A DNA stretch of 17,327 nt, taken from contig JADHVS010000085.1 of NCBI GenBank assembly GCA_016783865.1, positions 1 to 17,327 on the forward strand, given 5' to 3'. Of this stretch, positions 783 to 15,130 are shown piece after piece. A program made the translations under genes and the position numbers. Under the pieces are notes generated by a model. That model did not search any database. It was not told the origin of the DNA and saw nothing but the letters and a program-made list of their open reading frames with translations. This DNA comes from Bacteroidales bacterium (GTDB taxonomy: Bacteria; Bacteroidota; Bacteroidia; Bacteroidales; SM23-62). Position 1 is the stretch's first letter; each line of letters begins with the position of its first letter.

Positions 783-922
783 GGTTTCAGGTTCCGCGTT
801 CAGTGTTCTGCGTTCGACGTTTTACGTCCTTCGTCCTTCGTCTTTCGTCCTTCGTTCTTATCCGGCATCTGGCATCCGGCATCTCGTATCCCGTATCGCG
901 TATCATTCCTCATTCCATCTTG
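783..922. repeat. Heptamer array with drifting unit (20 units in register)
   Basis: From 783 to 922 the sequence can be cut into 20 consecutive 7-mers with no phase slip. Neighbouring units usually differ by one to three bases, while distant ones look unrelated: GGTTTCA, GGTTCCG, CGTTCAG early on; CGTCCTT and CGTCTTT in the middle; ATCCGGC, ATCCCGT, ATCGCGT later; CTCATTC at the end. The array fills the space between the gmd copy 1 start and the ATPase remnant. I see no gene in it. The resemblance to cyanobacterial STRR heptanucleotide repeats is by structure, not by a search. Confidence 0.85.
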
Positions 923-2425: not shown

Positions 2426-2752
2426 TTAGGCATAGATCGTCTTACCCTTTGTGTAGATTTCTTTATAAAACAAATCTCCCATTGCAATCCGTTTGTTTAT
2501 TCTAGACTCGTCGTCTACTATAATGTCAAAGTGTATTGGAAATTTCTTTGACAAAGTGATCCACAGTTGTTTTTTAAGTTGAATTCTGAAATCCCTGACT
2601 TCATCCTCAGGTATTTCTTTAATTACTAAAAGATCTATGTCACTTTCAGTATTTGGATTTCCTTTTGCATAGGACCCAAATAAGATAATTTTTTTAACTC
2701 CATAGGGTTTTATTATCGAAATAACCTCTTGAAGTAAGTTATCTTTATTCAT
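2426..2752 (-). CDS. MNT-type nucleotidyltransferase (antitoxin of a HEPN/MNT pair)
   Basis: A 108-residue minimal nucleotidyltransferase. The catalytic motif GS-x10-DxD is complete: GSYAKG at residues 26-31 and SDIDLL from 37, with Asp38 and Asp40 as metal ligands. In HEPN/MNT toxin-antitoxin systems this protein silences the HEPN RNase, in characterised cases by adding AMP to it. Here the HEPN partner downstream survives only as a C-terminal remnant, so this is probably an orphan antitoxin. The gap to the next gene upstream (DUF2283) is almost entirely octamer array. Confidence 0.88.
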   Translation of the reverse strand: MNKDNLLQEVISIIKPYGVKKIILFGSYAKGNPNTESDIDLLVIKEIPEDEVRDFRIQLKKQLWITLSKKFPIHFDIIVDDESRINKRIAMGDLFYKEIYTKGKTIYA

Positions 2753-2760
2753 GAATTAAA

Positions 2761-2817
2761 TAGTTTCAGGGTTTCATTACTTTTTACTCTGAAACTTTGT
2801 AACTCTGAAACACTATA
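2761..2817. repeat. Octamer array (ACTCTGAA family)
   Basis: Units of 8 bp: TAGTTTCA, GGGTTTCA, then ACTCTGAA, ACTTTGTA, ACTCTGAA, ACACTATA. It fills the gap between the MNT start and the DUF2283 stop codon and includes that stop (2813-2815). The same family recurs at 3242-3305 and 3702-3749. Confidence 0.8.
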
Positions 2818-3040
2818 AAAGATTTTGTGCCATACTATTCAGTGTTCTTTTAACAGGGTTGATAATGGTTAGCCCTTTTATCTCATTTGATTCCGGATCA
2901 ATTCTAATGATAGTTCCATCGCCAATATCAATTCCTTCTGCTATTTTTGGATTCCCAAATGATATATAGAGGACATCGGCTTCCCCATCATAATCCCATT
3001 TGATTTTTTCCTTTTTTTCCTGAATCTTTATTGTTTCCAT
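2813..3040 (-). CDS. DUF2283 domain protein
   Basis: A 75-residue protein. From residue 14 it reads WDYDGEADVLYISFGNP, then EGIDIGDGTIIRIDPESNEI and KGLTIIN, the hallmark of DUF2283, a small beta-rich family of unknown function. The gene directly upstream in the same operon (3028-3279) overlaps its start and resembles a nuclease-like toxin often seen beside DUF2283 genes. DUF2283 is therefore a candidate antitoxin, but this is inference. The stop codon is shared with the octamer array at 2761-2817. Confidence 0.85.
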   Translation of the reverse strand: METIKIQEKKEKIKWDYDGEADVLYISFGNPKIAEGIDIGDGTIIRIDPESNEIKGLTIINPVKRTLNSMAQNLL

Positions 3041-3279
3041 AGAATTTGCCTATTTGCATTGTACTTGCTGCAATAATATGCAGTTAAAATAAAGCCATTT
3101 CTTTCCCCGGTTTCTTTGTATACAACAACGAGATATTTGTTTTTTGTAACTGGAGTTTTAGAATACAATCTCACGGCAAGAAGCTCTCCAAAATCACCAT
3201 TAAAAATAAAATCGGGTTCTTCCAGAGTTTCAATAATAGAGACTCTGTAACTCTGTGACTCTGTAACTCTGAGACTGTT
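3028..3279 (-). pseudogene. Nuclease-like toxin partner of DUF2283, 5' end replaced by octamer array
   Basis: The minus-strand frame reads ETLEEPDFIFNGDFGELLAV, then RLYSKTPVTKNKYLVVVYKE, a GFILTAYY strand and ANRQILWKQ, stopping at 3028-3030 just inside the DUF2283 gene. This matches the C-terminal two-thirds of a small phage-Barnase/RelE-like nuclease family usually near 90-100 residues (family recognition from memory). The N-terminal ~30 residues are missing. Instead the open frame runs back into the ACTCTGTA octamer array (3242-3279), reading SLRVTESQSYRVSII, and meets a TGA at 3280-3282. There is no ATG. The array seems to have overwritten the beginning of the gene. Confidence 0.65.
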
Positions 3280-3305
3280 TCAGCGTTTCAGCGTTTCAGT
3301 GTTTC
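3242..3305. repeat. Octamer array with drifting unit (8 units in register)
   Basis: Eight consecutive 8-mers: ACTCTGTA, ACTCTGTG, ACTCTGTA, ACTCTGAG, ACTGTTTC, AGCGTTTC, AGCGTTTC, AGTGTTTC. The unit changes completely from one end to the other without losing register. The right end reaches the stop codon of the four-helix-bundle gene (3304-3306); the left end lies inside the truncated nuclease frame. Confidence 0.85.
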
Positions 3306-3690
3306 ACATTTTCTTATGTCCTTCGTACGTTGTTTTAGCCAGGTAGTTAATAAAATGTTTAATTTGTGCTGACAGATTTAAGCAATCATCCAGCAAAGAT
3401 GAATATTGTTCTTCTGTGAAATGCTTTGCATCGGCGCAGCGGTGTATTTGTGAACGGGTTTCACCCAGACTTCCTTTTGCGATATACAGGTATTGGATAA
3501 ACTCTTTTTTACCGTCCCGTTCATAACCTTCAGCAATATTATCCATAACGGATCCACAGGATCGCAAGATTTGATCTTTAAGTGAAAAATCTTTCGATAA
3601 TGTTGATTTTATTGATAATTCTCTGATTTTTATACAAAGGGAACGGGCATTCTTCCAGATTTCAAGATCTTCGAAACGTTGAACTTTCAT
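3304..3690 (-). CDS. Four-helix-bundle protein (23S rRNA intervening-sequence family)
   Basis: A full-length 128-residue member of the family first noticed inside 23S rRNA intervening sequences and related to the Avd accessory protein of diversity-generating retroelements. Visible signatures are FEDLEIWKNARSL at residues 6-18, DQILRSCGSVMDNIAEGYER at about 39-58, KKEFIQYLYIAKGSLGETRS, and a last helix near LNLSAQIKHFINYL. It is predicted all-helical and cytoplasmic; the molecular role is unknown. It is the only complete copy here: two internally deleted relatives lie at 1568-1690 and 8060-8310. Like them it is flanked by short-unit arrays, here octamers on both sides in the same orientation. 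Confidence 0.85.
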   Translation of the reverse strand: MKVQRFEDLEIWKNARSLCIKIRELSIKSTLSKDFSLKDQILRSCGSVMDNIAEGYERDGKKEFIQYLYIAKGSLGETRSQIHRCADAKHFTEEQYSSLLDDCLNLSAQIKHFINYLAKTTYEGHKKM

Positions 3691-3701
3691 TTGATTTTTT
3701 T

Positions 3702-3749
3702 CTCTGAAACTCTGTAACTCTGAAACCCTGAGACTGTTTCAATGTTTAC
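3702..3749. repeat. Octamer array (CTCTGAAA family)
   Basis: CTCTGAAA, CTCTGTAA, CTCTGAAA, CCCTGAGA, CTGTTTCA, ATGTTTAC in register, immediately upstream of the four-helix-bundle gene. It is a direct repeat of the array on that gene's other side (3242-3305): both contain CTCTGTAACTCTGA and GAGACTGTTTCA. Confidence 0.8.
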
Positions 3750-3793
3750 TCACGAAATCATTTATTTTCAATGGTGTTCGTGAATGCTTCGCA

Positions 3794-3982
3794 TTTCGGG
3801 TTCCGGGTATCTTTTTAACCACCCCGTCACTCGCTCCGCTCGTGCCACCCCTCCTTAAAATAAGGAGAGGAAACTTTCTTTTTTCGTACTTCGTACTTGC
3901 GTTCGTACTTTGTACTTCTGACTTCTGGCTTTGAAATGGCTTCGCCGAGCTCCGCGGAGTTTATCCCGTTTATTGCGGGGCT
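3794..3982. repeat. 189-bp direct repeat, left copy
   Basis: Positions 3794-3982 and 4639-4827 are the same sequence at a constant offset of 845 bp, with about four mismatches by eye. The unit contains, in order: GGGTTCC words; a GTCACTCGCTCCGCTCGTG element with a CCTCCTT/AAGGAG hairpin (3819-3870); a CGTACTT-type heptamer array (3885-3931); and GC-rich stem sequences (GCTCCGCGGAG near 3949 and CCCG...CGGG near 3965). The two copies bracket the MNT/HEPN module at 3993-4627. No gene is visible in it. Confidence 0.9.
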
Positions 3983-3992
3983 CCGGTTCGGA

Positions 3993-4302
3993 TTAAGGAG
4001 TTTGTTGGAGGAATTCTTTTATCCGGTGATAAATGGTTTCAGCCAGTTCGATAAATCCTTTTGCTTCATCAGGAGTTGGTTTCCCGTTGGGTAAAAGGCC
4101 TAATTCACCCGGGTATCTGGCATCAATATAGAGCTGGTCGAGTACGATCATATTCTTCAATTACCGCTTTAAATGACTTTTCAATTGCCTGCTGAACATG
4201 GAAAGCGACCTGATGGGTCAGCGATTCCTGACCCAGGATTTGTTTGATCAGAAGAAGATCTGATTCTGCGCTAAGTAACCAATCCTTTGTTATCTTTTTC
4301 AT
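3993..4302 (-). pseudogene. HEPN toxin with internal deletion and frameshift
   Basis: The N-terminal half starts at ATG 4300-4302, overlapping the MNT gene by 32 bp: MKKITKDWLLSAESDLLLIK, then HQVAFHVQQAIEKSFKAVIEEY, the usual first helices of a HEPN domain. The C-terminal half lies in another frame: VLDQLYIDARYPGELGLLPN, then EAKGFIELAETIYHRIKEFL, stopping at 3993. The total length of 310 bp is not a multiple of three. About 35-40 residues normally found between the halves, including the helix with the conserved HDL motif, are missing. The protein is unlikely to act as an RNase. It pairs by position with the intact MNT gene at 4271-4627. Confidence 0.8.
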
Positions 4303-4627
4303 ACAGTATTTTCCCATTGGTAAGTATTTCCCTGGCAAACAAACTATTTGTTTCGATGAATTTGTTATGCATCGCTTTGGTATGAACAATAAGATCAACC
4401 GGATATTTTTCTTTGATCCCGGAAATGACACGGGAAACTCTCAGGTAAATCCGGCTCTTTTCCGCAAAACTTAATGGGATCCTGTTATCACTTGTAACTA
4501 CTAAAATATCAATATCGCTATCTTCAGACGGTTCACCATATGCATATGAACCAAACAGGATGATTTTTTCAGGTTGGATTTGTTTCAGCTTATCAATAAG
4601 TAGTGGTATGTATGAGGTGCCTTTCAT
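4271..4627 (-). CDS. MNT-type nucleotidyltransferase (antitoxin of HEPN/MNT pair)
   Basis: A 118-residue protein with a complete GS-x10-DxD motif: GSYAYG at residues 26-31, SDIDIL at 37-42. It is predicted to inactivate its HEPN partner, whose gene overlaps its 3' end but is broken. The ATG at 4625-4627 (MKGTSY) is chosen because it puts the catalytic motif at the same residue number (Gly26) as in the MNT protein at 2426-2752. The longer frame reaching 4693 would translate the direct-repeat element and adds no recognisable domain. Confidence 0.86.
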   Translation of the reverse strand: MKGTSYIPLLIDKLKQIQPEKIILFGSYAYGEPSEDSDIDILVVTSDNRIPLSFAEKSRIYLRVSRVISGIKEKYPVDLIVHTKAMHNKFIETNSLFAREILTNGKILYEKDNKGLVT

Positions 4628-4638
4628 AATGTTCAGGG

Positions 4639-4827
4639 TTTCGGGTTCCGGGTATCTTTTTAACCACCCCGTCACTCGCTCCGCTCGTGCCACCCCTCCT
4701 TAAAATAAGGGGGGGAAACTTTCTTTTTTCGTACTTCGTACTTGCGTTCGTACTTTGTACTTCTGACTTCTGGCTTTGAAATGGCTCCGCCGAACTCCGC
4801 GGAGTTTATCCCGTTTATTGCGGGGCT
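4639..4827. repeat. 189-bp direct repeat, right copy
   Basis: Second copy of the element described at 3794-3982. Differences seen are AAGGGGGGG for AAGGAGAGG in the hairpin arm and two C/T or A/G changes in the GGCTTCGCCGAGC segment. It lies between the MNT gene and the downstream end of the AbiEii-type gene; no gene is visible in it. Confidence 0.9.
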
Positions 4828-4846
4828 TCGCTTCGTAATTCATTCG

Positions 4847-5563
4847 TCATTCCTCCTCCGGCCGTGCTTCCTCTATCGGTGTTTTTCCGGCGCCCAGGGA
4901 GTTGTCGTTGCCGAAGAGGAAATCGCGGGAGATGATGTCGAGTTTTTGCTTGAATTGCTCCAGATTTACAGGTTCACGAAGCCATTTCTGTTCGGGAAGC
5001 CAGGAGACCGGAAACGTGGTCAGTCGCATCAGAACGTCCTGTTCGTTTATAATCTGTTTTTTTATGGCAATCCGGTAGATCGTTTTCCAGTTAAATGAAA
5101 AATGCCCGGCGAATGTCACAATATCAAAAATGTCTTTTGCTTCATCGCGACTGAGCATTGCCCCTAGTTTATTTGTAAGAATATTTAACGGATTATCCAA
5201 CGGAATCGAATTTTGAAACAACGTTTTGCCCTCCCTGAAAGCAATGTCGTTGACAAATTCCAACTTCATCCTAACCTCCCCTTCAATCCAGATCCTGACG
5301 AACTCATCCGCATCAATGGTCGAACCTGTATCAACGTGAATGTTCTCCTGCAACAAAAGATATATCCTCCTGGTCTCCTCCTTGAAATTAATATCCCGAT
5401 TGACGAAAAAATCAAGATCGTCGCTAAACCTGTGATGCAGGTAATATCTTCCCAATGCCGTTCCACCTGTCAAATAGAATGAGCCAAGCTTTCCGGTAAG
5501 CAGGTTGAGAACTCTATCCTGAAGTTTATAAAGTTTTTTGTAATTGATCGCGGATGAATTCAT
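4847..5563 (-). CDS. AbiEii-type nucleotidyltransferase toxin
   Basis: A 238-residue nucleotidyltransferase of the AbiEii/AbiGii toxin family (type IV-like toxin-antitoxin and phage-abortive systems). It has GGTAL at residues 33-37 and HHRFSDDLDFF at 43-53 (the R-x-S-x-D-x-D core), a KLEFVND strand near 98-105, and NKLGAMLSRDEAKDIFDI near 132-149, the family's third motif. Related enzymes transfer NMPs to targets such as tRNA or GTP-dependent sites. The gene overlaps the end of the small gene upstream (5526-5828) by 38 bp, marking a two-gene unit. The C-terminus is acidic (EEARPEEE). It looks intact. Confidence 0.85.
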   Translation of the reverse strand: MNSSAINYKKLYKLQDRVLNLLTGKLGSFYLTGGTALGRYYLHHRFSDDLDFFVNRDINFKEETRRIYLLLQENIHVDTGSTIDADEFVRIWIEGEVRMKLEFVNDIAFREGKTLFQNSIPLDNPLNILTNKLGAMLSRDEAKDIFDIVTFAGHFSFNWKTIYRIAIKKQIINEQDVLMRLTTFPVSWLPEQKWLREPVNLEQFKQKLDIISRDFLFGNDNSLGAGKTPIEEARPEEE

Positions 5564-5828
5564 ACCGGGGAATTAATGACTTGAATCGAACTGACCGGAT
5601 TGTTTTATCGGTGAGTAGCTGAGCTATTCTTTCAGGAGGAATTATTGACAAGATTGTAAACCATGGGTACGACTCAATGAGTTTCCTGAAGAGGGTGGCT
5701 TCGGTGTAATGGCCGGCTTTCTTGCGTTTGCCTTCCAGCACCTCGAGGCACTCCTCCGGGGGGATGTTGTAGTCCCACATCAGGGAGCGCATCAGGGAGA
5801 GGCGTTCTTCGTAAGGGGCGAGGTCCAT
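5526..5828 (-). CDS. Small partner of AbiEii-type toxin (putative antitoxin)
   Basis: A 100-residue protein whose 3' end overlaps the AbiEii-type gene by 38 bp. It begins MDLAPYEERLSLMRSLMWDY and has hydrophobic positions compatible with two or three helices (LFRKLIESYPW, ERIAQLLTDKTIRSVRFKSL). I do not recognise it firmly. Its position and a pattern of LMWDY, then a VLE..GH..E segment, then a final RFK..IPRYEF resemble small proteins commonly encoded before AbiEii genes in Bacteroidota (DUF6922-like), and the 90-residue protein at 14309-14581 occupies the same place in the other AbiEii pair. The antitoxin role is inferred from context. The start ATG is 3 bp from a GAATTAT-type heptamer array, leaving no room for a Shine-Dalgarno site. 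Confidence 0.6.
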   Translation of the reverse strand: MDLAPYEERLSLMRSLMWDYNIPPEECLEVLEGKRKKAGHYTEATLFRKLIESYPWFTILSIIPPERIAQLLTDKTIRSVRFKSLIPRYEFIRDQLQKTL

Positions 5829-6003: not shown

Positions 6004-7053
6004 CTATTCATATTTCAGTTTTCGGGAGAGGATCTTCTTCTCATTCGGATAATTCCATGCATCCCAGGGAAAGTGTTTGCCTCCAAGCCAGTCGCCCCAT
6101 CGTTTCATATCTTGTTCAACCATGAGTTGCACCAGTTTCCTGAAATCAGTCCTGGGTTCCCATCCCAGTATTTCCCTGCTTTTTGAGTAATCCCCCTTCA
6201 GGTAACTTACATCAACCGGCCGTTGATATTTTTTTTCTCTCTTCACAAACTCATGCCAGTCAAGACCGGCATGTTGAAAAGCAATTTCCAGGAATTCACT
6301 GACCGTGTGGGTGGTATTGGTGGCGATCACAAAATCGTCAGGACGCTCCTGCTGCAACATCAACCACATGGCCTCAATGTATTCCGGGGCATATCCCCAG
6401 TCGCGGCTGGAATCAATATTCCCCAGCTCAAGGCAGTTTTCCAGTCCGAATTTGATTTTAGCCACGGCATTGGTTATTTTCCGGGTCACAAACTCCATCC
6501 CCCTCAGTGGCGATTCATGGTTGAACATAATCCCTGTGGAGGCAAAAAGTCCATATCCCTGCCGGTAGATCCTGACCACGCTGTGGGCATATAGTTTAGC
6601 TGCTGCATAGGGACTTGACGGACAAAAAACCGTATGTTCATCCTGGAACGGAAATGAGTTATCCCCGTACAGTTCACTCGTTGAGGCCTGGTAAAACCGG
6701 GCATCCGGCACGGTTAACCGGATGGCTTCCAGCATCCTGGTTACCCCGAGTCCCGTTACCTCACCGGAAGCAATCGGTTGTTCAAATGAAGCTCCAACAA
6801 AACTTTGTGCGGCCAGATTATAGATCTCATCAGGCCGGGTTGTTTTCAATGTTTCAATGATCGAAAAACTATCGATCAGATCACAGGGCAGCAGCTCAAT
6901 CTGATCAAAAATATTGAGATACTGAAGCCGCCAGAAATTGGGGGTGGATAATCTCCGGTAGGTCCCAAATACCCTGTATCCTTTCTTTAACAGAAAATCC
7001 GCTAAATAAGCTCCATCTTGTCCGGTGACGCCGGTTATCAGGGCTTTTTTCAA
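6004..7053 (-). CDS. gmd: GDP-mannose 4,6-dehydratase, copy 2 (complete)
   Basis: A 349-residue extended SDR enzyme forming GDP-4-keto-6-deoxy-D-mannose from GDP-D-mannose, first step towards GDP-fucose, GDP-rhamnose or related sugars for surface glycans. It has GVTGQDG at 8-14 (cofactor binding), NLAAQSFVG at 79-87, TSE at 125-127, YAAAK at 149-153 (catalytic Tyr149, Lys153), NHESPLRG at 178-185 and SRDWGYAPEY in the C-terminal substrate domain. Length is normal for the family. The start is TTG at 7051-7053; a start at the next Met would delete the cofactor motif. The sequence upstream of TTG, through GGTTTCAGGTTCCGCGT, is the same as in copy 1, so the duplication includes the flank. No other deoxysugar gene is visible next to it. 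Confidence 0.94.
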   Translation of the reverse strand: MKKALITGVTGQDGAYLADFLLKKGYRVFGTYRRLSTPNFWRLQYLNIFDQIELLPCDLIDSFSIIETLKTTRPDEIYNLAAQSFVGASFEQPIASGEVTGLGVTRMLEAIRLTVPDARFYQASTSELYGDNSFPFQDEHTVFCPSSPYAAAKLYAHSVVRIYRQGYGLFASTGIMFNHESPLRGMEFVTRKITNAVAKIKFGLENCLELGNIDSSRDWGYAPEYIEAMWLMLQQERPDDFVIATNTTHTVSEFLEIAFQHAGLDWHEFVKREKKYQRPVDVSYLKGDYSKSREILGWEPRTDFRKLVQLMVEQDMKRWGDWLGGKHFPWDAWNYPNEKKILSRKLKYE

Positions 7054-7221: not shown

Positions 7222-7626
7222 TCATTTCTGCCGTATCTCCCCGATAAATTCCCGGAACAGAAATAGTTTGTTTTTCAGGATGTTGTAGATAATTTCCAGG
7301 TCGATCCGTTCATACCTGTGAACAATGAAGTTACGGAATTTTACCAGTTCTTCATATTCGGGACGGGGTGACAGAATTCCCAATTCCTGCAGTTTTTTCA
7401 TGTTCTCCGCGGCCGACCGTAGGGGACTGATATGATTCAGCGCCAGGAGCCGTTCGCTTACATCGATCATCACCTCTACAGAGACCTGCAAAGCGCGTTC
7501 CAGGGCATTCTGAAGAAGGGAGCTGTGCTGTAATGCATCAAATGAGGTGATGTTCCAGCTTTCGATCCCGGCAAGCTTCTCCTCCATGATCCGGAGTTTG
7601 GCTTCAATGATCCCATTGTACTTCAT
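7222..7626 (-). CDS. hepT: HepT-type HEPN RNase toxin
   Basis: A 134-residue DUF86/HepT protein, the RNase toxin of HepT/MntA systems. The catalytic R-x4-H-x-Y motif is complete: Arg98, His103, Tyr105 within KFRNFIVHRYERID. In the characterised Shewanella system, MntA adds AMPs to this tyrosine to switch the toxin off. It overlaps the upstream mntA-like gene by 23 bp. This is the only HEPN toxin in the window with its middle and active site intact, yet the start of its own antitoxin gene is damaged. A second hepT at 14622-14742 shares the same first ten residues (MKYNGIIEAK) but is deleted internally. Confidence 0.9.
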   Translation of the reverse strand: MKYNGIIEAKLRIMEEKLAGIESWNITSFDALQHSSLLQNALERALQVSVEVMIDVSERLLALNHISPLRSAAENMKKLQELGILSPRPEYEELVKFRNFIVHRYERIDLEIIYNILKNKLFLFREFIGEIRQK

Positions 7627-7993
7627 AGCCTCTGTAAATTAATTGTTTTTTCATCCAGGCAATCGCATCTTCATACTCCCGGCAGGTAAGGGAGTACCAG
7701 GCGGCATATTGATCCATTGCTTCGTTGCGGATGAACAGCTCCCTCCCCGTCAGCGCTTCAAAAGCCAGTTGTACCCCTGCAGTATTCAACAGGGTAAGAT
7801 CGCAGGAGACTCCCTGTGTAACGGTCTCCACCACCCCGATGATCCGGGGAATCAACAAGGCACGCTTCGTATCATCTTCCACCCAAACGGCAAGATCGAT
7901 GTCTGCTCCTTCGCGTATCTCTCCATCCTGAGCGGAGCCAAAGAGGAAAGCAAACAGAATCTCAGGGAAATTTTGTTTCAGTTCAGAAGCAAG
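7604..7993 (-). CDS. mntA: MntA-type nucleotidyltransferase lacking its native start
   Basis: The frame encodes 129 residues colinear, without indels, with residues 8-136 of the intact MntA at 14720-15130. It includes FLFGSAQDGE and EGADIDLAVW (the GS-x10-DxD site) and the end YRGYEVQWDH. The first seven residues (MNIAIQN) are replaced: upstream of 7993 the frame stays open through a C-rich run and a GGTTTCA-type array, reading LKPETFPPSLLASELK, with no ATG. A GTG at 7880-7882 starts after the catalytic aspartates and would give an inactive protein. Translation may begin at a non-standard codon, or the gene may be silent. If silent, the intact HepT next door would have to be controlled in trans, perhaps by the second MntA. 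Confidence 0.75.
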   Translation of the reverse strand, partial: LASELKQNFPEILFAFLFGSAQDGEIREGADIDLAVWVEDDTKRALLIPRIIGVVETVTQGVSCDLTLLNTAGVQLAFEALTGRELFIRNEAMDQYAAWYSLTCREYEDAIAWMKKQLIYRGYEVQWDH

Positions 7994-8007: not shown

Positions 8008-8072
8008 AGGTTTCAGGTTTCAGGGTTCTATAAGTGATTAAGTGTTAAGTGGTTAAGTTTTAAGTGTTAAGA
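8008..8072. repeat. GGTTTCA and TTAAG arrays
   Basis: GGTTTCA, GGTTTCA, GGGTTCT, then GTGATTAAG, TGTTAAG, TGGTTAAG, TTTTAAG, TGTTAAG. It abuts the 5' end of the truncated mntA on one side and supplies the terminal codons of the four-helix-bundle remnant on the other. Confidence 0.8.
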
Positions 8073-8310: not shown

Positions 8311-8425
8311 ATCTTCTTAAAACTTAACCACTTAAAACTTAACCACTTAACACTAAATAAATCCAACTCTTCAAACGATCTATACAAATCTTCTTAAAAC
8401 TTAAAACTTAACCACTTAACACTTC
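8311..8425. repeat. Inverted TTAAG-type arrays with duplicated gene 5' fragment
   Basis: CTTAAAA, CTTAACCA, CTTAAAA, CTTAACCA, CTTAACA words (8316-8352), then a second copy of the four-helix-bundle 5' end (8358-8387) and its upstream bases ATCTTCTTAAAACTT, then the same words again up to 8425. Orientation is opposite to the array at 8032-8072, so the remnant gene is framed by inverted arrays. A tandem duplication of about 78 bp explains the repeated 5' end. Confidence 0.75.
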
Positions 8426-8955: not shown

Positions 8956-10947
8956 TTAGCCGATAATCTTTTGTCTTTCCAGGAAATGAATAATCTTATC
9001 AGTCTTATCTTCAGCCGAATCCGCTTCCAACACAATCGCGGGATTGATCGGCTCATCGTAGGTGCTATCGATTCCTGGCAAATTCTCCACCTTCCCCTCT
9101 TCCGCCAAGGCATACAGCCCGTACTTGTCGTTCTTCTTGGCGAAATCGATGTCAGATTTAAGGTAAACCAGGTAGAATCGCTCCTGCCCGATGATACCCG
9201 ATACCTGTTGCCGGATATTTTCGTCAGGAGAGATAAAGGAGCAGATGGTGATGATCCCCTGGTCATTGAGCAGCTTGCAGATGTGCGCCACGCGCCGCAG
9301 ATGTTCTGCCCTGTCGGCCGGCGAAAAGTCCAGTTCCCTGGATAGCCCGCTTCTCACACTCTTCCCATCCAGGAGTACTGTCGTCGCCCCTATATCAAAC
9401 AATCTTCTCTCAAGGCCATAAGCGACTTCGTTTTTTCCAGAACCATGTAATCCCGTTATCCAAATGGTTGCTCCTTTTTGATGCAACCTGCCCTCTCTCT
9501 CTTCTGAGTTAATAAGCGAATTACCCTGAACTATATGACTAATTTCTAATTTCGAATTTCGAATTTCCAATTTCGTCACGACAGCATCCAGTATCATGCC
9601 TACTGCCACCGTATTGTGAGTGACTGGATCAATGAGCACAAAACTCCCCGTATTCCTGTTCTTTTTATACGCATCAAAAAACAGCGGCTTCACGGTCGTC
9701 ATAACCACTCTCCCGATCTCGTTGAGTTTGAAATGGTCGGTCTCCGGCTTCTCCAGGGTATTCACATCAACCCGGTAGCGAATAGTCTCGATCCGTGCTT
9801 TGGTGGTATTGGTGGTCTGCTTGATATAGAATTGAGTATAGGGATCCATCGGCGCCTCATCCATCCACACCAGCATCGCCTCAAAGCTTCGTCCGATCCG
9901 CGGCAAGTTACCAGGATGCACCAGCATATCGCCGCGGGAGATATCGATCTCGTCGGTGAGCGTTAGCGAGACTGACTGCGGGGGGAAAGCGTAAGACGTA
10001 AGACGTGAGACGTGAGACGTGGGACGTGAATCGTGTTCAGAAAATTCCTCCTTCCTCCTTCCTCCTTCCTCATTCTTTTGCGGACTGTGGACTGCGGACT
10101 GCGGACTCGTAATAGCCGTCACCGTCGTGGTTTTCCTTGATGGTAAAACCATCACCTCGTCCCCAGTCCTGATAATTCCCGATGCTACTCTTCCCGCAAA
10201 TCCCCTGTATTGCAAATCCGGGCGGATCACATACTGAACGGGGTAGCGCAGCTCCTCGAAGTTGCGGTCGGAGGTGACGTGGACGGTCTCCAGGAACTCC
10301 AGCAGGCTTTTTCCGTGATACCAGGGCATCTTGTCCGAGATATCTACCACGTTGTCGCCTTTGAGTGCCGAAAGGGGAATGAAGTGAATGTCGGGGATGT
10401 CGAGCTGCGTGACAAACTTGTGATAATCTTCACAAATGGACTCGAATACTTCCTGTTTGTAATCCACCAGGTCCATCTTGTTCACGGCCACCACCACGTG
10501 CCTGAGCCCCAGCAGGGAGACGAGGTAGGAGTGGCGACGGGTTTGGGTGATCACCCCTTTGCGGGCGTCCACCAGCAGGATGGCGAGGTTGGCCGTGCTG
10601 CCGCCGGTGATCATGTTGCGGGTGTACTGCTCATGTCCGGGGGTGTCGGCGATGATAAACTTCCGCCGGGCAGTGGAGAAATACCGGTAGGCGACGTCGA
10701 TGGTGATCCCCTGCTCGCGCTCTGCTTTGAGTCCGTCGAGCAAAAGGGCGTAGTCGATCTCCCCTCCGGCATGCCCTTCACGTTTGCTGTCGCGCTCCAG
10801 GGCCGAGAGCTGGTCTTCGTAGAGCTTCCTGGAGTCAAACAGCAGCCGGCCGATCAGCGTCGATTTGCCGTCGTCGACGCTGCCGGCGGTAAGAAGCCGG
10901 AGGAGGTCTTTCTTTTGGTCCTGATCGAGGTAGGCTTTTATGTCCAT
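8956..10947 (-). CDS. cysNC: Sulfate adenylyltransferase large subunit fused to APS-kinase-like domain
   Basis: A 663-residue protein. Residues 1-455 are CysN, the EF-Tu-like GTPase that with CysD makes adenosine 5'-phosphosulfate from sulfate and [11 protein letters not shown] at 22-29, DTPGH at 101-105, NKMD at 156-159 and DEIDISRGD at 332-340. Residues 492-663 are CysC-like: TGLHGSGKN at 498-506, [10 protein letters not shown] at 526-535, FISPDENIR and GIDSTYDEP. Two oddities stand out. First, residues 280-319 are encoded by a heptamer array where homologues have only a short loop (from memory), and 458-470 in the interdomain linker come from another array. Second, the kinase P-loop ends in Asn instead of Ser/Thr, and the usual LDGDN reads LDGKS, so kinase activity is doubtful. 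The ATG at 10945-10947 starts the conserved domain properly. cysD lies upstream, separated by a MazEF-like pair. Confidence 0.93.
9540..9574. repeat. Heptamer array inside cysNC (linker)
   Basis: TAATTTC, TAATTTC, GAATTTC, GAATTTC, CAATTTC in register. On the coding strand it reads [12 protein letters not shown] at residues 459-470, between the CysN and CysC-like domains. Related words fill the gap upstream of the gene (10948-11050). Confidence 0.85.
9991..10109. repeat. Heptamer array inside the CysN coding region (17 units)
   Basis: 17 consecutive 7-mers: GTAAGAC and GTGAGAC (9991-10018), GTGGGAC, GTGAATC, GTGTTCA, GAAAATT, CCTCCTT three times (10047-10067), CCTCATT, CTTTTGC, then GGACTGT, GGACTGC, GGACTGC, GGACTCG. 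Total 119 bp, read as residues 280-319 of the minus-strand protein without a stop. Conserved CysN sequence resumes at once on both sides (VTAI before, [15 protein letters not shown] after). Confidence 0.9.
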
Positions 10948-11090: not shown

Positions 11091-11435
11091 TTAGTCAAGA
11101 TCAAGTACTATTTTCAAATTGCTTTTTATTTTCAGGGCAAGTTCCTGGGAAATCGTTCCCACTTTTTTTAAGAGTCTTTTATTATCAATTGCCCGGATCT
11201 GATCAATCATGATATCACACGCTTCATTCAATCCACAACAACCTCTATGCAGGTGAACTCTTAAAATTTCACTTTCCCGTTGAACATGGGTCGTTATGGG
11301 GCAGATTATGGATGATAAATGGGACTTGTTCAACAGATCTGTTTGAACAACTATCACGGGTCTAACTTTACCAGGTTCTGTTCCTATCGTAGGATTCAGA
11401 TCTGCAATCCAGATTTCAAATTGTTTCACCTTCAT
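11091..11435 (-). CDS. MazF/PemK-type endoribonuclease toxin
   Basis: A protein of about 114 residues of the MazF/PemK mRNA interferase family: KVKQFEIWIADLNPTIGTEP then GKVRPVIVVQTD, the characteristic N-terminal barrel with the KxRPVIVVQ signature. Next come SSIICPITTHV and a C-terminal DQIRAIDNKRL motif. The arginine in GKVRP and the S/T in the CPITT strand are the usual active-site region. The ATG at 11433-11435 is preferred; a TTG two codons earlier would add only two residues. It overlaps the antitoxin gene by about 20 bp. It interrupts the expected cysD-cysN adjacency. Confidence 0.9.
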   Translation of the reverse strand: MKVKQFEIWIADLNPTIGTEPGKVRPVIVVQTDLLNKSHLSSIICPITTHVQRESEILRVHLHRGCCGLNEACDIMIDQIRAIDNKRLLKKVGTISQELALKIKSNLKIVLDLD

Positions 11436-11655
11436 AATCAATTAGTTCAAAATCGTGAAGAACCGTCATAGAATCATTCATAACCAGGGTGGATTCTTTT
11501 TCCAATTTGACTGCCAATAATTTTCGTTGTTGAAATTTATTGTAGAATTCCAGGGCTTCATTGATATACCGGTTCCGGGATTTCTTCATATGCTTGATAA
11601 CCTGTTCAGTATCTGAAAATACTGAATCATCCAGTTTTAATGATAACGTCTTCAT
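11416..11655 (-). CDS. Ribbon-helix-helix-like antitoxin (MazE-type partner)
   Basis: A 79-residue protein beginning MKTLSLKLDDSVFSDTEQVI followed by SRNRYINEALEFYNKF, the strand-helix-helix pattern of RHH/CopG-type DNA-binding antitoxins. The C-terminal half (KLEKESTLVMNDSMTVLHDF) should wrap the toxin. It is translated ahead of the MazF-like toxin and overlaps it. A good promoter with a palindrome in its -7 region lies directly upstream, as expected for an autoregulated pair. Confidence 0.8.
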   Translation of the reverse strand: MKTLSLKLDDSVFSDTEQVIKHMKKSRNRYINEALEFYNKFQQRKLLAVKLEKESTLVMNDSMTVLHDFELIDYEGETI

Positions 11656-11733: not shown

Positions 11734-11910
11734 CATGGTAGTCATGAAAGTGATGAAGGTGATGACGTGATGGGAGTGATGAGGTGTATTTTTTTTTACC
11801 ACTCCGTCACTCGCTGCGCTCGTGCCACCCCTCCTTAAAGAAGGAGGGAAAATGTTTAAGATTCGCTCTTCGCTTTTAATTGTTAATTCCTCATTCCTCA
11901 TTCCTCATTC
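11734..11910. repeat. Mixed repeat block downstream of cysD
   Basis: GTCATGAAAGTGATGAAGG-type words (11734-11787), a T run, a GTCACTCGCTGCGCTCGTG hairpin element (11799-11848) and ATTCCTC heptamers (11886-11909) that abut the cysD stop codon at 11911. No gene is visible. Confidence 0.75.
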
Positions 11911-12819
11911 TCAGAAGTATCCCTCACGTTTTTTCTGCTCCATAGATGCCTCCTGGTCAAAGTCGATGACCCGGGTCGTTCTCTCGGATTTGGTCACGGT
12001 CATCATCTCTTCGACGATCTTTTCGATGGTGTCGGCACCGGACTCCACGGCGCCGGTGAGGGGGTAGCAGCCGAGGGTGCGGAAACGGACCTTTTTCATG
12101 AAGCTCTTTTTGCGCAGTTCTTCCGGCATCCGGTCGTCGTCGACCAGGATGAGGTTGCCGTCCACCTCTACCACTTCGCGCTCTTTGGCATAGTAGAGAG
12201 GTACAATGGGGATCTGTTCCAGCCGTACGTATTGCCACACATCCAGCTCGGTCCAGTTGCTGAGAGGGAAGACGCGGATCGACTCCCCTTTGTGCACCTT
12301 GGCGTTGTAAAGGTTCCATAATTCGGGACGCTGGTTCTTGGGGTCCCACTGGTGGTAGCGGTCGCGGAAGGAGAAGACCCGCTCCTTGGCCCGGGACTTC
12401 TCCTCATCCCGGCGGGCTCCCCCGAAAGCGGCATCGAACTTGTACTTACTAAGCCCTTCCAGAAGGGCCTGGGTCTTCATGATATCGGTATGCACCTTGC
12501 TGCCGTGAGTGAAGGGGCCAATACCCGATTCAAACCCTTTCTTATTGTAATGAACGATCAGATCCCATCCCTTCTCTCTGGCATGATTATCCCGGAATTC
12601 GATCATCTCCCGGAACTTCCATTTTGAATCAATGTGCATCAGGGGGAAAGGGACCTTTCCGGGATAAAAGGCTTTCTCGGCCAGACGTACCATCACGGAG
12701 GAGTCCTTGCCGATGGAGTAGAGCATCACGGGATTTTCAAATTCGGAAGCCACCTCGCGAATGATGTGGATGGATTCGGCTTCGAGTTCGCGGAGGTTGT
12801 TCAACGTATATTCTGACAT
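11911..12819 (-). CDS. cysD: Sulfate adenylyltransferase small subunit
   Basis: A 302-residue PP-loop ATP pyrophosphatase subunit that, activated by CysN GTP hydrolysis, forms adenosine 5'-phosphosulfate. It has [18 protein letters not shown] near residues 34-51 (PP-loop SxGKDS), [36 protein letters not shown], and the C-terminal [17 protein letters not shown], all diagnostic. Start chosen at ATG 12817-12819 ([12 protein letters not shown]), which matches the normal beginning. A longer frame to 12876 would add 19 residues translated from the heptamer array and is unlikely. cysNC is the functional partner, 960 bp downstream beyond the mazEF-like pair and repeats. Confidence 0.95.
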
Positions 12820-12832
12820 ACAAGGATTGTTT

Positions 12833-12951
12833 CTAGTTGCTTGTTGCTGGTTGCTAGTTAATTCCTTATTCCTCATTCCTCATTCCTCATTCCCTATTCT
12901 GTTATCCGGCATCGCGTATCTCGTATCGCGCATCGCGTATCGCACATCAGC
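12833..12951. repeat. Heptamer array with drifting unit (17 units in register)
   Basis: Seventeen 7-mers without phase slip: CTAGTTG, CTTGTTG, CTGGTTG, CTAGTTA; then ATTCCTT and ATTCCTC units (12861-12888); then ATTCCCT, ATTCTGT, TATCCGG; then CATCGCG, TATCTCG, TATCGCG, CATCGCG, TATCGCA, CATCAGC. It fills the gap upstream of cysD from 14 bp before its start codon to the stop codon of the next gene (12947-12949), which lies inside the last unit. Confidence 0.9.
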
Positions 12952-13657: not shown

Positions 13658-13701
13658 CATGGAGTCATGGAGTCATGAAGGTGATGAATTCCTCATTCCT
13701 C
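13658..13701. repeat. CATGGAGT octamers and ATTCCTC heptamers containing a stop codon
   Basis: CATGGAGT, CATGGAGT, CATGAAGG, then ATTCCTC, ATTCCTC. On the minus strand the last units read GAGGAATGAGGAAT and provide the final Glu-Glu codons and TGA stop (13693-13695) of the AbiEii-type gene. Confidence 0.8.
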
Positions 13702-14316
13702 AATGTACAGATCTATCGCCTTCTCAATCAGGAACTCTCTGATCTCTTCTTCGGGGATAGGCAAACCCATGTACTCAATGGCTTCGGAATAATTTATATC
13801 GTTGAAGAAACAAACCTGAGCCCTGAAAAGCTTTTCAGAGAATAGTTGGTCAAAGATCTCTTCAGCCCGTTCAGAGATTTGTTTGATTGTGAAGTGATCC
13901 CTGAGGATGAAAAAGAGATCCACATAGTCCTTCCATTTGGATCGTCGCCCGAGTGCATAGGCTTTCATCGCAGCCAGATCGATCAGGGAAGGCATCCGGA
14001 TGCTATCCTCGAAGAGATCTTGAGCCTGAACCGGAAAGGGATACTCGTAAAAAGTAAATTTTACATCATGAATGGTCACATTCAGTTGTTCGGTTACCCG
14101 GCGTGTGATCTCATACGGAAAGCCGAATACTGCCAGCTTGTTTACAATGCTTTTCGGCCGGATGGGAGAATGCTTGAACAGATCAAAATCAACGGATCTC
14201 CGGTGGCCAATATGCAGTGCGATAGCGGTTCCTCCAACCAAAATAAACTCCCGTTTAAACACCTTTAACAGAGGAAGCAATTCGACCTGAGTTGCGGTTA
14301 AGATCTCCTTATGCAT
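13693..14316 (-). CDS. AbiEii-type nucleotidyltransferase toxin, second system
   Basis: A 207-residue protein with the AbiEii core: GGTAIALHIGHRRSVDFDLF at residues 28-47 (GGTA plus R-x-S-x-D-x-D), a YEYPF segment near 92, and LIDLAAMKAYALGRRSKWKD then YVDLFFILRDHF near 111-138, the family's distal motif. Predicted to modify a cellular RNA or protein by nucleotidyl transfer when not neutralised. Distinct from the 238-residue protein at 4847-5563: little identity outside the motifs. Its start overlaps the small upstream gene by 8 bp. The C-terminal ...IEE and stop come from the ATTCCTC array, so the original end may have been altered. Confidence 0.87.
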   Translation of the reverse strand: MHKEILTATQVELLPLLKVFKREFILVGGTAIALHIGHRRSVDFDLFKHSPIRPKSIVNKLAVFGFPYEITRRVTEQLNVTIHDVKFTFYEYPFPVQAQDLFEDSIRMPSLIDLAAMKAYALGRRSKWKDYVDLFFILRDHFTIKQISERAEEIFDQLFSEKLFRAQVCFFNDINYSEAIEYMGLPIPEEEIREFLIEKAIDLYIEE

Positions 14317-14581
14317 GGCGGGAAAAGAAGAGAGAGAAATAATGATGGATCTCGGGAAAATAATTCAATTTTTTACGTCCTTCAGCGCCGAAAAAGACTT
14401 TTGAAACACGTTCCATTCCCATCAGATTGATTAGCTTCAGAATGTCATCCAAACTGGCATAATTCAGGATGGTTTCCACCAGGAACTCCTCGCTGATCTC
14501 CTCTTTTTTATCTTCCGGGGTGTACCAGAAGAGGGAACTATGCTCGCGGATAAAGGCTTTTATTTCGGGGGAATGTTCCAC
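14309..14581 (-). CDS. Small partner of the second AbiEii-type toxin (putative antitoxin)
   Basis: A 90-residue protein from a GTG start at 14579-14581, with HSSLFWYTPEDKKEEISEEF, then LVETILNYASLDDILKLINL and a terminal YFPEIHHYFSLFFSRH. The LFWY...lVE.iLNYgs...FF pattern resembles DUF6922-like small proteins encoded ahead of AbiEii genes (from memory). It occupies the same place as the 5526-5828 gene in the first system. The antitoxin role is inferred from order and overlap. A short inverted repeat TTCCA/TGGAA (14577-14589) covers the start codon. Confidence 0.65.
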   Translation of the reverse strand: MEHSPEIKAFIREHSSLFWYTPEDKKEEISEEFLVETILNYASLDDILKLINLMGMERVSKVFFGAEGRKKLNYFPEIHHYFSLFFSRHA

Positions 14582-14621
14582 AATTGGAATGAGGAATAAG
14601 GATCACATCCGGCATCCCGCC

Positions 14622-14742
14622 TCAGCTTTCCCTGATTTCAGTGATAAAGTGCAGAAAGAGCGGGAGCTTGTTTTTCAGGATGTTATAAATGATCTCCAGG
14701 TCAATCCGTTCGCTTTGCTTCAATGATCCCATTGTACTTCAT
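14622..14742 (-). pseudogene. hepT with internal deletion
   Basis: It starts MKYNGIIEAK, the same ten residues as the intact HepT at 7222-7626, and overlaps mntA by 23 bp in the same way. The sequence then jumps directly to codons for ERIDLEIIYNILKNKLPLFL and HFITEIRES, equivalent to the intact protein from residue 106 on, in a different frame, stopping at 14622-14624. The first frame itself stops after MKYNGIIEAKRTD. Roughly 95 residues are gone, including the R-x4-H-x-Y catalytic motif. The toxin is dead; its antitoxin gene is complete. Confidence 0.85.
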
Positions 14743-15130
14743 AGCCTCTGTATAGTAATTGTTTCTTCATCCAGGCAATCGTATCCTCATATTCCCGGCA
14801 GGTAAGTGAATACCAGGCAGCATAGTGATCCATGGCTTCATCGCGGATAAAAAGTTCCCTCCCCGTCAGCGCTTCAAATGCCAATTGTTCCCCGGCATCA
14901 TTCAACAGGGTCAGATCGCAGGAGATCCTTGGCACGACGGCTTCAACCACCCCGATGATCCGTGGGATCAATTCAGCACGTTTCGAGGGGTCCTCCAGCC
15001 AGACGGCCAGATCGATGTCCGCTCCTTCCCTGACTTCGCCATCCTGTGACGATCCAAACAGGAACGCAAAACATATTTCGGGAAACCGGCTTTTGAGATC
15101 TGAAGCAAGATTTTGAATAGCTATGTTCAC
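14720..15130 (-). CDS. mntA: MntA-type nucleotidyltransferase antitoxin (intact)
   Basis: A 136-residue minimal nucleotidyltransferase with an exact GS-x10-DxD motif: FLFGSSQDGEVREGADIDLA, Gly26-Ser27, Asp38, Asp40. In the characterised system MntA AMPylates the HepT tyrosine. The hepT gene overlapping its end is internally deleted, so here it is an orphan. Because it is about 80% identical by eye to the start-less MntA at 7604-7993, whose HepT is intact, it might act on that toxin in trans. A good promoter lies upstream, partly inside the SLC13 transporter gene. Confidence 0.88.
   Translation of the reverse strand: MNIAIQNLASDLKSRFPEICFAFLFGSSQDGEVREGADIDLAVWLEDPSKRAELIPRIIGVVEAVVPRISCDLTLLNDAGEQLAFEALTGRELFIRDEAMDHYAAWYSLTCREYEDTIAWMKKQLLYRGYEVQWDH

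Follow-up and report, generated by a model that had tools for sequence, protein, structure and literature searches.

Period-7 repeat arrays lie in frame within a CysN loop and recur in loops of other conserved enzymes

Heptanucleotide repeats are common in prokaryotes, where period 7 is dominant and slippage has been proposed (Mrazek 2007, as told in PMC4679880; this and the other cited sources are used here for the parts of them that were accessible). Described examples include TAACTGA repeats, GGGAATC in Xanthomonas and Nostoc, and GGGACCG elements in Geobacter, the last of which are found both between and within genes. A translated 7-base array is known from neuO of E. coli K1, for which translation is full-length if the number of units is divisible by three (PMC13001214). 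Rickettsia palindromic elements (RPEs) and intragenic REPs are repeats of extragenic type which lie in frame inside unrelated genes (PMC10969869, PMC3733652). The last three reports, together with PMC4692102 and PMC2700814, are the nearest published cases to the one described here; the accessible part of PMC4060949 contains nothing on period 7 in genes.

Genes, and needed genes in particular, would be expected to exclude repeats whose unit length is not divisible by three. Here, we analysed a stretch of 17,327 nucleotides from a Bacteroidales bacterium (contig JADHVS010000085.1, hereafter the window) together with related genomes, and we found heptamer arrays in loops of MurG, AroA, AlaS, HisS, NadE and CysN, with a different unit in each of the arrays of the MurG domain. 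In a search of the openly licensed literature, we found no published account of heptamer arrays that appear repeatedly in the same loops of conserved enzymes.

Period-7 arrays in the cysNC gene

The window carries a cysNC gene on the minus strand (8956..10947), which encodes a bifunctional sulfate adenylyltransferase subunit 1 / adenylylsulfate kinase of 663 aa and whose reading frame stays open throughout. The whole protein matches NF004035 (CysNC) over its full length with 878.3 bits, compared to a curated cut-off of 715, and a structure match to CysNC was also obtained. Residues D101, P103, G104 and H105 as well as N156-D159 are invariant in the 30 sequences compared; DTPGH at D101-H105 and NKMD at N156-D159 are presumably the GTPase motifs of CysN. 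The open reading frame of the partner subunit, cysD, lies upstream on the same strand (11911..12876, minus strand; NF009214, 499.5 bits against 413).

Three period-7 arrays, detected by TRF and by a lag-7 scan, are found in the CysN part. Written on the plus strand, their units are ACGTGAG (array 1, 9986..10029), TTCCTCC (array 2, 10043..10077) and TGCGGAC (array 3, 10079..10109); on the coding minus strand they are read as LTSHVSR, GGRRKEE and VRSPQSA, respectively. As read on the coding strand all three units are free of stops, while the opposite strand of unit 1 contains one. An earlier note on this DNA had described an array read in frame inside CysN, and the open frame with its stop-free units bears this out. 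To describe the array as 119 bp that consist only of 7-mers goes slightly too far: the three arrays cover 105 of the 119 bases, but bases 10030-10042, between arrays 1 and 2, do not have period 7. A similar adjustment applies to the number of added residues, given as about 40 (280-319). According to the alignment and the structure model, the insert does comprise codons 281-318 (9994..10107, minus strand), which replace a short loop between two strands, but the net gain is 31 residues (a loop of 50 compared to 19).

A fourth array, with the unit AATTTCG, is located in the linker between CysN and CysC (9538..9575, minus strand, residues ~456-471; TRF and lag-7 scan) and was missing from the earlier note. 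By eye, relatives show other heptamer-like peptides at this linker site, including one protein (P0010) without the loop insert. Only 2 of 1000 dinucleotide shuffles of cysNC yield any period-7 array, compared to the four observed. Direct 7-bp tandem units beyond chance characterise the heptanucleotide simple repeats of prokaryotes, and the window has such units.

Outside cysNC, TRF detected arrays of the same kind at 818..859 (CGTCTTACGTCCTTCGTCCTT) and at 12861..12899 (ATTCCTC), the latter over the 5′ end of the cysD reading frame, and another array at 11886-11910. A second repeat type with steps of about 7/8 bases, TTAAGTGTTAAGTGG-like and its complement, was also found by TRF at 1512-1578, 2192-2251, 8031-8071 and 8316-8424.

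The sequence around the arrays is conserved. Outside the insert and the linker, cysNC is under purifying selection (dN/dS 0.066 over 598 codons), in agreement with the earlier observation that conserved flanks continue.

The CysC part of the gene (8956-9480) has a kinase domain that reads GLHGSGKN and DGKS, and APS kinases usually have GKS/T and DGDN. Residues G504, K505, N506 and D527-S530 of this part are invariant in 43 relatives, and the genome of one relative (G001) has a separate APS kinase-like match besides the fused CysC. The fused CysC domain may be regulatory. The window also contains many genes of toxin-antitoxin type at 2426-5828, 7222-7882, 11091-11441 and 13693-15130 (nucleotidyltransferases, HEPN, HepT-like, two AbiEii and one PemK/MazF) and a 23S rRNA intervening-sequence protein at 3304-3690. 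By eye, the ORF at 7604-7882 is a near copy of the one at 14720-15130.

Different repeats in the same CysN loop

The domain that carries the insert is, we assume, the EF-Tu-like domain II of CysN. The alignment to 1zun_B breaks at 1zun_B residue 292, the insert site, and picks up at residue 299. In the predicted structure (model A2, pLDDT 80; an earlier model, A1, with a pLDDT of 56 was set aside as poor), residues 284-314 have a pLDDT below 50 and are flanked by strands at 272-280 and 325-330. Residues 458-464 of the linker also have a pLDDT below 50. The CysN loop is accordingly modelled as disordered.

We compared the loop across CysN homologues, taking the best 120 of 8000 scored. The loop has 19 residues in 86 of these 120 proteins and is long in 30, with 4 unparsed. 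After P0002 and P0017 had been left out as near copies, 28 of the 30 long loops entered a test for periodicity, in which 174 of 879 positions show a residue match at lag 7, compared to 62 in shuffles (z 15.0). Among lags 3 to 12, lag 7 is the only one elevated in these 28 loops. The seven-residue periodicity is the print left in the protein by three 7-mers per seven codons.

The content of the loop changes between close relatives. Among 63 pairs of proteins with 90-95% core identity, 43 show a loop identity below 0.4, where shuffled-letter loops average 0.26, and different repeats occupy the same CysN loop in different relatives. This result supports the proposal made for the window that arrays can be inserted into genes or expand inside them. 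The idea that this loop tolerates arrays is likewise upheld by the variation of the relatives' repeats and by the short 19-residue form in most of the best-scoring homologues. The comparison of relatives, which had been suggested as a check, found no conserved non-repetitive segment of the same length in the CysN loop. The wording 'essential-type GTPase' of the earlier note is too firm for CysN, but MurG, AroA, AlaS and HisS contain arrays as well.

A tree of 62 of the 120 proteins, built with the loop excluded, groups the long-loop proteins together with a support of 0.60 when P0041 is included and 0.93 when it is left out. The insert-free protein P0010 (81% identical) falls within the insert clade, with a weakly supported placement. 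With the exception of P0010, a long loop is kept by the whole insert clade, as could be expected if loops were selected for a function, for example as disordered localisation or partner-binding segments for which repeats are the raw material. Nonetheless the loop ranges from 19 to 77 residues in the loop parse, most of its sequence is not shared and arrays also affect enzymes that are unrelated to each other, and we consider selection for such a function very improbable.

An assembly artefact or a chimera in metagenome contigs was also considered. Some related contigs break within the cysN gene (L040 and G044), one of the loci used for comparison (L001, the cysN locus of G001) is a MAG sequence, and we know of no isolate that bears the insert. 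However, P0002, which comes from another contig, has a loop identical to that of the window and 8 residue differences elsewhere, which speaks against an assembly error. Furthermore, many assemblies repeat the pattern, with frames that remain open and with repeats placed in the same loops of three genes, and the CysN loops have their seven-residue period. An artefact is thus extremely improbable.

In L001, the CysN loop holds a dispersed palindromic repeat with 16 inverted pairs rather than a period-7 array. Exact 27-base copies of this repeat are found at positions 6260, 7795 and 10103 of L001, and L091 and L082 carry copies that span 97-110 bp at 85-87%. Outside L001, copies lie in five other stretches of G001. 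The CysN loop therefore appears to be a general repeat sink and not the site of one element.

The repeat of L001 is a palindromic dispersed element in frame, as in RPEs and intragenic REPs, and the insert of the window might likewise have come as a mobile repeat element that was later eroded. In-frame palindromic elements are published (PMC10969869 and PMC3733652, accessible parts), and similar-looking peptides are seen by eye in other CysN loops (P0004, P0005 and P0023-P0026). The window insert itself has a different make-up: it consists of three different direct-repeat arrays and is not palindromic, with no pair of inverted repeats of at least 8 bases in 9960-10130. The arrays of MurG, described below, bear on this explanation as well.

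Arrays in other genomes and enzymes

Genome-wide figures are based on samples of the relatives G001 and G002 and of 15 further genomes. Per 100 kb, the density of period-7 arrays is 75 in the window and 27 and 23 in the samples of G001 and G002. Ten additional family genomes range from 6 to 27, and five genomes outside the family have 0, 1.3, 6.9, 8.5 and 31. No period-7 array was found in 100 kb of E. coli K-12 or in 80 kb of a Maribellus genome (G054). In the window and the larger samples, period 7 tops the other periods from 5 to 12: for example, there are 70 arrays of period 7 compared to 19 of period 8 in 259 kb of G001, and 61 compared to 16 in 264 kb of G002. Period 7 is without a lead in some small samples (3 against 3 in G043, 6 against 8 in G044 and 2 against 10 in the outgroup genome G066). 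These samples support the view that the earlier note caught one case of a pattern running through the sampled genomes.

The supply of arrays alone does not decide where they are found in genes. The outgroup genomes G062 and G061 are array-bearing too, with 31 and 7 arrays per 100 kb, yet their CysN matches (L028 and L022) of 1896 and 1893 bases have no space for a large insert. We also observed that L022 is array-rich, with 31 period-7 arrays in 16 kb.

The units are diverse: 187 arrays pooled from the window, G001, G002 and G041-G044 fall into 90 unit classes. Across these ninety classes there is a weak shared pattern, T-Y-N-(C/A)-(G/T)-N-N, which scores 4.09 bits compared to a mean of 3.63 and a maximum of 3.89 in 40 random sets (40 starts for the real units and for the controls). 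Slippage alone gives no account of this pattern. We also entertain, as a doubtful possibility, a period-7-specific repeat-writing process, perhaps a polymerase, a reverse transcriptase or a repair pathway with a 7-base step and the loose rule T-Y-N-M-K-N-N, which would keep producing heptamer arrays genome-wide. If this were true, enzyme loops would be constantly rewritten with new seven-residue-periodic peptides, and the low-complexity inserts of Plasmodium proteins are a suggested counterpart of bacterial loops rewritten in this way.

In the window and the samples of G001 and G002, 47 of 144 arrays are internal to ORFs, at least 60 bases from both ends. Since genes were called by a simple longest-ORF rule, these counts rely on Pfam checks of 30 ORFs, comprising 20 of the 23 array ORFs in the samples of G001 and G002 (all except three with lengths of 169 to 207 aa) and 10 of a further 17 (five of the seven omitted are AroA). 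All 30 have a Pfam match at E 0.001. Placed by hand, the array lies within a Pfam match or between two in 23 of the 30, where for AlaS, HisS and the acyltransferase the second matched stretch is assumed to be on the far side of the array, a point on which the Pfam table is silent. It lies outside the match in five (a DUF4838 protein, AlaDH, GT2, MutS and aconitase), and two could not be placed (PD40 and one FG-GAP protein).

According to Pfam, the hosts of in-gene arrays include MurG, AroA, AnmK, Mur ligase, heptosyltransferase, saccharopine dehydrogenase, AlaS, HisS, NadE and acyltransferase. For example, an acyltransferase of G042 (L203, 3860-3980) has about 16 perfect AACCAGC units directly in front of residue 125, the point at which its match resumes at profile position 69. 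Among the in-gene arrays scanned, this is the longest perfect run. An in-gene array is not always an insert, because several short ones, in MurC, Tex and GHMP kinase, give no net length gain compared to Pfam and may be chance events.

Of 43 family genomes, 41 have a MurG match and all 43 an AroA match, and the comparison covered 30 loci for each enzyme. The 14 arrays of the MurG domain all fall in one loop (query 237-253), in 13 of the 30 related sequences. Five sequences carry six further arrays just behind the MurG domain, within the linker that leads to a fused Mur ligase (the fusion was confirmed by Pfam in two of the five). Among 23 outgroup sequences, none has a period-7 array in the MurG loop, and a single array is located elsewhere. 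Positions 325-364 of AroA account for 12 of the 13 arrays, spread over 9 of the 30 sequences. One of the 30 MurG sequences (G006) has an internal stop, and MurG also shows period-6 arrays, 17 of them in 16 of the 30 family sequences.

The 14 arrays of the MurG domain belong to 14 different unit classes, so that no element sequence is shared between them. Together with the direct, non-palindromic repeats of the window, this makes the arrival of the insert as a mobile element unlikely, even though the L001 loop gives it some weight.

Another explanation is that the arrays are contingency loci, in which adding or losing a 7-mer would put the gene out of frame and turn the enzyme off, as for NeuO of E. 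coli K1. A change by a single unit does shift the frame, at least four perfect units follow in a row in 11 of 55 in-gene arrays, and gene switching by a translated heptanucleotide array is known (PMC13001214, accessible part). However, instead of a uniform array near the 5′ end, the window has imperfect arrays of three kinds in the middle of the gene (codons ~281-318 of 663), and the hosts include MurG, AlaS, HisS and AroA. An OFF state of these four enzymes should be lethal or costly. Switching of this kind is thus a distinctly improbable explanation.

Proposed growth and persistence, and relation to known systems

Similarity between units decays with distance inside arrays of at least 42 bases that lie outside genes (n=34), with values of 0.78, 0.72 and 0.66 at lags 14, 21 and 28. 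Such a decay is predicted by stepwise local duplication. It is weaker in 10 in-gene arrays (0.84, 0.84 and 0.77 at the same lags). A unit class is shared with the other 97 arrays by 24 of the 47 in-gene arrays, compared to 4.4% expected for random units, and regularity is equal in both settings (0.851 in genes and 0.845 between genes, p 0.36). Slippage combined with selection against frameshift might predict more interruption in genes than is seen in these values and in the perfect acyltransferase run. The decay, the shared unit classes and the equal regularity together argue for a common supply by local duplication, followed by selection.

A strand test on the units gave 4 of 6 and not 6 of 6; the consensus units are suspected of hiding single-base variants. 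A search with a two-unit composite of G002, in which 40 of 79 candidates were scored, gave 40 partial matches and, as its one full match, the composite itself.

We infer that period-7 arrays arise and grow by a slippage-like local tandem duplication of about 7 bp. Inside genes, an array would persist at places that allow the chain to form a bulging, disordered loop or linker, provided that the total length stays in frame and that the units are stop-free on the coding strand. These survival conditions would explain why CysN, the CysN-CysC linker, one MurG loop, one AroA loop and others collect arrays repeatedly, with units that differ between species. Tolerance would act as a filter, and the inserts would be translated but would probably have no specific function. 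Overall, we think it probable that the insert in CysN is extragenic-type repeat DNA retained as coding sequence in a tolerant loop, and that such loops act as repeat sinks.

The arrays amount to a natural experiment that asks which loops of proteins accept arbitrary sequence, and they offer a test of the reasons for the prevalence of period 7 among bacterial repeats. They also provide a path by which non-coding repeats turn into protein. On the practical side, gene callers, aligners and assemblers may break at array sites.

The case can be set against the known systems, as far as the accessible parts of the reports on repeats describe them. The host gene family is CysNC, from which the window version differs by its longer loop. 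Heptanucleotide repeats of other prokaryotes involve one or few units per genome and are mostly intergenic, whereas here there are 90 unit classes with many arrays within conserved genes. In contrast to neuO, a single phage-borne, phase-variable gene with a uniform 5′ array, many conserved enzymes carry arrays here, at mid-gene and with mixed, imperfect units. RPEs and intragenic REPs are alike in being extragenic-type repeats in frame within unrelated genes, and the L001 loop resembles them; they are palindromic and have a family sequence, whereas the insert of the window is made of direct 7-base arrays, and units in the same loop differ from species to species.
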